A stretch of 64,000 bases of DNA from Asanoa sp. WMMD1127 (GTDB lineage: Bacteria; Actinomycetota; Actinomycetes; Mycobacteriales; Micromonosporaceae): the NCBI RefSeq assembly GCF_029626225.1, contig NZ_JARUBP010000001.1, positions 5,642,001 to 5,706,000 of the forward strand, in the 5' to 3' direction. Below the pieces are notes generated by a model. That model saw only the letters and a list, made by a program, of their open reading frames with translations. It made no database searches and was not told where the DNA came from. Positions 56,438 to 58,996 of the stretch are shown in pieces (positions within the stretch are counted from its first letter, which is position 1; each line of letters opens with the position of its first letter). Position numbers and translations under genes: made by a program.

Positions 56438-57520
56438 TCAGTAGCGCACCGTGCTCTGCAGCAGCGGCGGGTAGACCGTCGACTCTCGACCGTCCACTGT
56501 GGTGCCGGCGAACTGCAGCATGGCCTGCTGCGCGCCGTGCATCGGGGCAGGGTAGTCGAGGTCCGGCGCGGAGACGGCGTCGAGGGTTCTGCGCTGTTCC
56601 GCGGTCAGCCGCACGGTCAGGCCGGCGAGGTTGTCCTCCAGGTGGGCCACCTTGCGGGCGCCGACGATCGGGACGACCGTGCCCGGGCGGGCGCGCAGCC
56701 AGGCCAGCGCGACCGCGGCCGAGGTGGTGCCGAGCTCGTCGGCGACCCCGGCGACCGCCTCGATGACGTCGTAGTCGGCCTCGCTCGGCCCGCCCACGAA
56801 GGCGGTGCGGGCCGAGTCGGCGACCTGGCCGCCGCGCCGGTACTTGCCCGACAGGAAGCCGTTGCGCAGCGGGCTCCACGGCACCAGCGCCAACCCCTGG
56901 TCGAGCGCCAGCGGGCCGATCTCGCCCTCGACGGTGCGGGCCAGCAGCGAATATTCCACCTGCAGCGCGACCAGCGGCGTCCAGTCCTTCAACCGGGCCA
57001 TGGTCTGCGCCTGCGCGGTGACCCAGGCCGGCGTGTTGGAGAAGCCGACGTAGCGGATCTTGCCGGCCCGGACCAGGTCGTCCAGGGTCCGCATGGTCTC
57101 CTCGATCGGCGTGTGCCGGTCCCAGTTGTGCATCCAGTAGAGATCGAGGTAGTCGGTCCGCAGCCGGCGAAGGGTCTGCTCCAGCTGGGCGATGATCGAA
57201 CGCCGCCCGGCGCCGCCGCCGTTGGGGTCGCCGGGGAACATGTTGAAGAAGAACTTCGACGCCAGCACCACGTGGTCGCGCCGGCCCGGCCGGGCGGCGA
57301 ACCAGTCGCCGAGGATCTTCTCCGAGTGGCCGTTGGTGTAGAAGTTGGCGGTGTCGACGAAGTTGCCGCCGCGCTCCAGGTAGGTGCCGAGGATCTTCTC
57401 GGACTCGGCGACGTCGCAGCCGGCGCCGCCCGGGTCCGTGCCGAAGGTCATCGCGCCGAGCGCGAACGGGCTGACCCGCAGGCCGGATCGGCCGAGGGTG
57501 ACGTAGTCGGTGAGTGCCAT
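56438..57520 (-). CDS. Aldo/keto reductase
   Basis: A 360-residue AKR of the general-stress GSP69/YajO-like type. The catalytic tetrad is visible: FVDTANFYTNG (Asp, Tyr), LASKFFF (Lys) and YWMHNWD (His). The NADP-binding end is GTVVPIVGARKVAHLEDNLA. It reduces aldehydes or ketones in the cytoplasm. ATG 57520; no operon partner is visible. Confidence 0.92.
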   Translation of the reverse strand: MALTDYVTLGRSGLRVSPFALGAMTFGTDPGGAGCDVAESEKILGTYLERGGNFVDTANFYTNGHSEKILGDWFAARPGRRDHVVLASKFFFNMFPGDPNGGGAGRRSIIAQLEQTLRRLRTDYLDLYWMHNWDRHTPIEETMRTLDDLVRAGKIRYVGFSNTPAWVTAQAQTMARLKDWTPLVALQVEYSLLARTVEGEIGPLALDQGLALVPWSPLRNGFLSGKYRRGGQVADSARTAFVGGPSEADYDVIEAVAGVADELGTTSAAVALAWLRARPGTVVPIVGARKVAHLEDNLAGLTVRLTAEQRRTLDAVSAPDLDYPAPMHGAQQAMLQFAGTTVDGRESTVYPPLLQSTVRY

Positions 57521-57590: not shown

Positions 57591-57962
57591 TCACGGAAGC
57601 ACGGCTTGCGCCCAGCTCGGGAGCGGGATCAGGCAGAACGGGTGCCCGGCCGGGTCGGCGTAGACGCCCTCGCCGTCGAGCTTGCGGGCGCCCAGGGCGA
57701 GCACGGCGGCGCCGGCCGCGGCCGGGTCGTCGACCATCACGTCGAGGTGGATCTGCTGCGGCACGGCGGGGTCGGGCCAGGTCGGCGGCCGGTGGTCGGG
57801 CGCCCGCTGGAAGGCCAGGCCCGAGGCCCGGTCCGAGGACGAGACGACCGCGAAGTCGTCGTCGCGGTAGGTGACCGGCAGCCCGAGCAGCGCGCTGTAG
57901 AACCGCGCCGACTCGTCCGGGTCGGGACAGTCGATGATCGTGTGGTGCAGCCGTCCAATCAT
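57591..57962 (-). CDS. VOC family (glyoxalase-like) protein
   Basis: A 123-residue single VOC-domain protein: RLHHTIIDCPDPDESARFYS, YRDDDFAVVSSSDRASGLAF, PQQIHLDVMVDDPAAAGAAV and YADPAGHPFCLIPLPSW. Substrate unknown. It appears leaderless: TAGCGT (complement of 57971-57976) ends eight bases before the ATG. It starts 11 bases after the stop of the quinone-oxidoreductase-like gene, so some co-transcription is possible. Confidence 0.88.
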   Translation of the reverse strand: MIGRLHHTIIDCPDPDESARFYSALLGLPVTYRDDDFAVVSSSDRASGLAFQRAPDHRPPTWPDPAVPQQIHLDVMVDDPAAAGAAVLALGARKLDGEGVYADPAGHPFCLIPLPSWAQAVLP

Positions 57963-57976: not shown

Positions 57977-58873
57977 GACCCTCAGGACGACCTTGCCCCG
58001 CCCGTGGCCGGCCTCCACCTCGCGGTGGGCGTCCGCGGCGGCCGCCAGCGGATAGCCGCGGCGCACATGGATCCGCAGCCCGCCGCGCTCGTGCAGCGCG
58101 ACCAGGGCGGCCAGGCGGGCGGCCGAGCGCAGCGGCGGGGTCACCCGTACGCCCAGCTCTTCGGCACGACCGTGGTCGACCAGGGTGAGGATCCGGGAGC
58201 GGTCGGGCACGAGCTCCAGTGAGACGTCGAGGGCCGCGCCACCGGCCCCGTCGAGGGCGGCGTCGACACCGTCGGGCGCGGCCGCGCGGACCCGGTCGGC
58301 CAGGCCGTCGCCGTACGCCACCGGAATCGCGCCCAGGTCCCGCAGGTAGGCGTGGTTCTCGGGACGGGCGGTGGCGATCACCGTCGCGCCGGCCGCGCGC
58401 GCGAGCTGCACGGCGACGGTGCCGACCGCGCCGGCCGCGCCATGCACGAGGAGCGTCTCGCCGGGCGCGGGCGCCAGCCCCGCGAGCGCGATGTGGGCGG
58501 TCTGCGCCCCGGCCGAGAAGCCGCCCGCGACCTCCCACGGCATGCCGGCCGGCTTGGCGACGACCTGGTCGGCCGGCACGGCGAGCAACTCGGCGTACGC
58601 ACCGAGCTGGCCGAAGCCGAGCACCTCGGTGCCGGCCGGCAGCCCGGGCGCGCCCACCTCCAGCACGCCGGCGAACTCGTTGCCGGGGATGCGGGGGAGC
58701 GTGGGCGGCACGCCGGCCGGCAGCCACCCCGCGCGGACCGCGCAGTCGTAGGGCTGCACGCCGGCGGCCCGCACCCGGACCAGCACCTCGCCGTCCGCCG
58801 GCACCGGATCGGGCAGCTCCATCAGGCGCAGGACGTCGGGACCACCGGGTGTGTCGAAGGCAGCGGCACGCAT
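57974..58873 (-). CDS. Quinone oxidoreductase-like medium-chain dehydrogenase, probably SoxR-regulated
   Basis: A 299-residue zinc-independent medium-chain dehydrogenase (quinone oxidoreductase type): PADGEVLVRVRAAGVQPYD, IPGNEFAGVLEVG, ETLLVHGAAGAVGTVAVQLA (Rossmann GAAGAVG) and ATARPENHAYLRDLGA. It reduces quinones or enones with NADPH. The promoter is of SoxR/MerR form: TTGACC, 19-base spacer carrying an 8-bp inverted repeat, CAGACT, then seven bases to the ATG. From memory, an oxidoreductase of this type is in the SoxR regulon of Streptomyces coelicolor (SCO4266), where SoxR answers redox-cycling compounds. Confidence 0.9.
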   Translation of the reverse strand: MRAAAFDTPGGPDVLRLMELPDPVPADGEVLVRVRAAGVQPYDCAVRAGWLPAGVPPTLPRIPGNEFAGVLEVGAPGLPAGTEVLGFGQLGAYAELLAVPADQVVAKPAGMPWEVAGGFSAGAQTAHIALAGLAPAPGETLLVHGAAGAVGTVAVQLARAAGATVIATARPENHAYLRDLGAIPVAYGDGLADRVRAAAPDGVDAALDGAGGAALDVSLELVPDRSRILTLVDHGRAEELGVRVTPPLRSAARLAALVALHERGGLRIHVRRGYPLAAAADAHREVEAGHGRGKVVLRV

Positions 58874-58880
58874 GGGCGCC

Positions 58881-58911
58881 AGTCTGCGACCTCAACCCGA
58901 CTTGAGGTCAA
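58881..58911 (-). promoter_or_regulatory. SoxR/MerR-type promoter-operator with 19-bp spacer
   Basis: On the minus strand TTGACC (-35, complement of 58906-58911) and CAGACT (-10, complement of 58881-58886) are separated by 19 bases, the stretched spacing typical of MerR-family activated promoters. GACCTCAA and TTGAGGTC (58888-58909) form a perfect 8-bp inverted repeat across this spacer, with the CCTCAAG-type half sites of SoxR operators. The ATG is seven bases after the -10. Confidence 0.78.
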
Positions 58912-58996
58912 CGCGTCGGCAGGCGTCCTCCGCGGCCTGCACCTTGGCCAGCGCGCTGGTCCGGTCGAACGGCGGCAATGGTGGTCGGTCGCTCAC
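58892..58996 (-). pseudogene. 5' remnant of a DUF1348 (NTF2-like) gene
   Basis: A 34-codon frame from GTG 58996 reads SDRPPLPPFDRTSALAKVQA then AEDAC. That matches, from memory, the start of DUF1348 proteins (RPPLPPFTxETAxxKVxxAEDAWNxRD), which are about 150 residues long. Similarity ends at AEDA(C for W) near 58918, and the frame closes 8 codons later inside the SoxR-type operator of the next gene. The rest of the gene is missing from the window. Confidence 0.7.

Follow-up and report, generated by a model that had tools for sequence, protein, structure and literature searches.

A putative SoxR-activated promoter, probably with a leaderless start, ahead of a quinone oxidoreductase gene in Asanoa sp. 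WMMD1127

Introduction

In Escherichia coli, SoxR works mainly via a single gene, that of the activator SoxS, whose promoter consists of about TTTACC, a 19-bp spacer with the CCTCAAGTTAACTTGAGG dyad, and the –10 hexamer TATACT. The promoter described here is alike in layout, whereas in Asanoa metabolic genes would be controlled directly and from leaderless starts.

The closest described system is that of Streptomyces coelicolor, where SoxR directly controls the quinone oxidoreductase gene SCO0320ext, whose promoter has an architecture like that of the other SoxR targets and is half-bound at 5–10 nM SoxR in gel shift (PMC4146615). The original prediction had held that the Asanoa gene is of a type reported as a SoxR target in Streptomyces, and this verified target, also a quinone oxidoreductase, bears it out. 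The two systems share a soxbox in the promoter of a quinone oxidoreductase gene and a set composed of a handful of redox enzymes plus a transporter (binding having been shown in S. coelicolor), while Asanoa differs in having two SoxR paralogs, another set of genes and a glyoxalase-like gene behind the quinone oxidoreductase. The likeness to SCO0320ext is one of gene type, the Streptomyces relatives closest to the Asanoa protein being without the box. A search of the literature for SoxR with leaderless transcripts, or for SoxR boxes in actinobacteria, found nothing closer than this study (PMC4146615). With this S. coelicolor gene, a quinone oxidoreductase under direct SoxR control, Streptomyces already provides a known example of such a switch, and what is added here is its conservation across families and the question of two paralogs.

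The box in front of the Asanoa quinone oxidoreductase gene (QOR) is, with high confidence, a SoxR-activated promoter that would yield a leaderless QOR transcript and would belong to a regulon of about six genes, with SoxR2, perhaps together with SoxR1, as the most likely regulator.

The promoter and its surroundings

The features of the window (the whole 64-kb stretch of DNA that was analysed) and of the genome are collected in Table 1. On the minus strand, positions 58911 to 58881 read TTGACC-TCAAGTCGGGTTGAGGTCG-CAGACT, where TCAAGTCGGGTTGAGGTCG is the 19-bp spacer; the hexamers, the spacer length and the arms across the spacer had thus been predicted correctly to the base. The arms (58909–58902 and 58895–58888) are perfect 8-bp inverted repeats with a gap of 6 nt, and the dyad CCTCAA-N6-TTGAGG is centred between the –35 and the –10, as expected for a SoxR-activated promoter. 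The spacer falls within the overlong class of 19–20 bp, and its length is identical in 70 relatives.

Table 1. Coordinates of the features discussed (window positions in the upper part, genome positions from SoxR1 downwards)
Feature	Position	Strand	Remarks
Aldo/keto reductase (AKR)	56438–57520		comes after the glyoxalase-like gene
Glyoxalase-like protein (Glyoxalase_6)	57591..57962	–	Pfam PF18029; begins 11 nt past the QOR stop
PIG3-like quinone oxidoreductase (QOR; MDR superfamily), 299 aa	57974..58873	–	TIGR02824, PF08240, PF00107, PF13602
–10-like hexamer CAGACT	58881..58886	–	19 bp from –35; positions 2 (A) and 6 (T) invariant, at unchanged distance, in 70/70 aligned promoters of boxed relatives
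Putative SoxR-type operator, perfect dyad GACCTCAA-GTCGGG-TTGAGGTC within the spacer	58888..58909	–	sequence, shuffles, conservation
–35-like hexamer TTGACC	58906..58911	–	sequence; TTGA retained in 69–70/70 conserved relatives' boxes
34-codon remnant of a gene presumed DUF1348/SnoaL-like	58892..58996	–	intact gene at the equivalent place in L173, L174, L175, L050
SoxR1	1920657		clade A
SoxR2	G000:C1:4437180		smaller clade
Box before second quinone oxidoreductase of the genome	206331		start at +37/38
Box before GTG of MFS transporter (L039)	229836 (G000:C1:229836-229857)		start at +37; half-sites CTGAAG/CTTCAAG
Box before SDR	340970		start at +37/38
Box before NmrA-like gene divergent from SoxR2	4437129		start at +37/38
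Box before QOR of the window	5700890		start at +37/38
Box before NAD(P)-binding oxidoreductase	7677133		start at +37/38

The best curated model for QOR is that of PIG3-type NAD(P)H quinone oxidoreductases (TIGR02824), matched at 149 bits, below the cut-off of 296.8, and the protein passes the Pfam cut-offs for its three zinc-binding/GroES-like domains. The glyoxalase-like gene that follows is probably co-transcribed with QOR, and it is retained in every Asanoa relative examined that holds QOR. In Asanoa iriomotensis, ishikariensis and siamensis, whose QOR proteins are 84–85% identical, the flanking order of AHSA1, glyoxalase and AKR is the same.

Upstream, the box is bordered by a deletion scar, which had been missed earlier. 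A gene that we take, by family name, to be DUF1348/SnoaL-like is intact and precedes the box in other Asanoa species; here a deletion of about 400 bp has fused the initial ~26 codons to the gene's final few bases, with a CCTG microhomology common to both ends at the junction. The deletion ends ~11 bp short of the –35, and the box is untouched.

Conservation of the box before QOR relatives

Within 300 bp upstream and at up to 3 mismatches, the box is found at 70 of 80 QOR relatives (loci from named genomes) and, with the reversed sequence, at none of the 80. All full-length relatives within the order at 65% identity or more retain it. The same upstream scan found no box at the other 10 loci, which was the result for the Streptomyces relatives (66–70% identity) and the Yinghuangia and Paenibacillus loci. 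The Paenibacillus oxidoreductases (L233, L238, L250) have 60–61% identity, which suggests transfer between phyla. Departures from the arm sequence sometimes affect both arms symmetrically, as in CCTCCA...TGGAGG (Amycolatopsis, Actinokineospora) and CCTCGA...TCGAGG (Actinomadura, Planomonospora), a pattern that would fit a dimer site, although it is seen only sometimes: one-arm changes are the commoner (33 vs 7 symmetric).

SoxR genes and their association with the box

It had been predicted that the regulator is not encoded in the window, and indeed no MerR or SoxR gene lies within the 64 kb. The proposed search of the genome for soxR was successful, so that the prediction escapes the refutation which the absence of any SoxR homolog would have meant: the 7.97 Mb contain two SoxR genes, at 203.6 and 195.5 bits against TIGR01950 (cut-off 116.9), while the other MerR genes reach at most 66 bits. 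Both proteins have a MerR-type HTH and the [2Fe-2S] motif CX2CXCX5C, as CIGCGCLSMQRC and CIGCGCLSFDEC (pattern CIGCGCLSxxxC), and for both the nearest solved relative is E. coli SoxR (2ZHG; E 2.4e-43 and 4e-41, nearly full length). Both are present throughout the genus. A tree was built from 70 SoxR sequences, with the E. coli row, which agrees with the 2ZHG sequence, serving only as a distant reference. The tree places SoxR1 in clade A, which is large (39 rows, support 100/99) and present in most relatives, and SoxR2 in the smaller clade (support 96/82).

A survey of 148 genomes of the class found the perfect 22-base box in 38 of the 72 that have SoxR and in 1 of the 76 that lack it (Fisher p 4e-14); genome size and kinship partly confound this association. 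Among genomes below 5 Mb, 9 of 25 carriers have the box and, as read by eye from the tables, no non-carriers do. Some ten perfect boxes are found no more than ~80 bp away from a soxR gene. Together with the two SoxR genes and the box retained before 70 of 80 relatives, this co-occurrence upholds the predicted MerR-family, SoxR-like character of the site. In one genome (L056, G044:C58) QOR and soxR lie near each other and point in opposite directions, and no recognisable box was found upstream of the oxidoreductase.

Boxes across the genome

The pattern TTGACYTSAAN6TTSARG, with one mismatch allowed, has seven sites in the 8-Mb genome, and the reversed pattern none. Six of these near-consensus boxes have a start codon at +37/38 and most precede redox enzymes (Table 1; gene functions, except that of the window QOR, were named by eye from sequence). 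The constant distance from box to start is independent evidence for a single promoter type. The seventh site (5192569, one mismatch) has no convincing gene at +37/38 and was not counted, and the inner palindrome at 630240, which has no –35, was set aside as not promoter-like. The MFS transporter box resembles those beside clade-A soxR genes, and this gene may be a SoxR1 target.

Which protein reads the box

That the box is a chance palindrome beside an ordinary promoter has a negligible probability. The inner palindrome alone, at 2 mismatches, is unremarkable, with 0.72 expected per window; however, CCTCAAN6TTGAGG has a single exact match in the window and none in 100 dinucleotide shuffles, the 31-base TTGACCTCAAN6TTGAGGN4AGACT has a single window match even at 3 mismatches and none in the shuffles, and the retention of the box in 70 of 80 relatives, though the flanks have changed, already refutes a chance origin. 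It is also improbable, if less extremely so, that another activator of the MerR family (AdhR/NmlR-like, electrophile sensing) reads the box instead of SoxR. NmlR/AdhR-type operators have a layout similar to this one, the genome holds 24 MerR-type matches over cut-off, and the products (QOR, glyoxalase and the nearby AKR) would suit electrophile stress. Yet when the 20 best MerR loci were scanned, only SoxR2 had a close box (2 mismatches), the next having 3 and the rest at least 5, and the perfect box is nearly limited to genomes with soxR, often adjoining that gene.

With two SoxR paralogs in the genome, any assignment of the regulator is tentative. SoxR2 is favoured over SoxR1, with a small share left to others, in comparisons that are suggestive and uncorrected for kinship. 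The clade-A protein SoxR1 is a rather unlikely sole regulator, even if genomes with clade A only (e.g. G024, G026, G033) still carry boxes, also before QOR. Among genomes of at least 6.5 Mb the mean number of boxes is 1.3 where SoxR is of clade A only and 4.1 where another SoxR is present (p 8e-5), and the QOR boxes of the former have drifted to 1–2 mismatches (n=3, p 0.006), kinship being ignored in both comparisons; moreover, SoxR2 alone carries the box at its divergent promoter, where it is conserved across the genus. Boxes near clade-A soxR genes look like TTGASTTSAAGTNNACTTCARG. A tentative, somewhat doubtful extension is that the paralogs split the regulon by half-site, the widespread SoxR1 reading the CTTGAAG type and SoxR2 the CCTCAA type, a lineage-specific second SoxR having taken redox-enzyme targets such as QOR.

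A probably leaderless start

The QOR ATG at 58873 lies 7 nt past the –10, and its distance from the initial T of TTGACC is 38 nt. A transcript begun ~7–8 nt beyond the –10 would therefore lack a leader. In half of the 70 boxed relatives (35/70) an in-frame start is found at +36–40, and a Shine-Dalgarno-like motif precedes the aligned start in none of these; the remaining 35 have a longer leader, with a Shine-Dalgarno in 31. This division implies that some lineages begin immediately and that the others place a ribosome site in a leader before the start. The comparative data thus lend support to the leaderless transcript of the original prediction, and the QOR start codon in Asanoa is probably leaderless, as judged from sequence.

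Discussion

In the mechanism proposed, which draws on what is established for SoxR and MerR proteins, a SoxR dimer, most likely of SoxR2 and possibly with the site shared with SoxR1, would occupy the dyad in the overlong spacer, and the oxidation of its [2Fe-2S] clusters by redox-active compounds would twist the DNA in such a way that the housekeeping RNA polymerase could use TTGACC/CAGACT. Transcription would begin at or beside the ATG and give a leaderless mRNA that probably includes the glyoxalase-like gene, and its products would serve in the detoxification of quinones or related electrophiles.

The link between box and QOR is broadly conserved, in Micromonosporaceae, Streptosporangiaceae, Thermomonosporaceae and Pseudonocardiaceae, and the split between leaderless and leadered starts on one conserved promoter lets modes of translation initiation be compared cleanly in nature. 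Direct control of a quinone oxidoreductase by SoxR would thereby extend beyond one Streptomyces case, in which the S. coelicolor copy carries a base deletion, and the intact QOR gene of Asanoa is a place to study the threats against which SoxR guards antibiotic producers.
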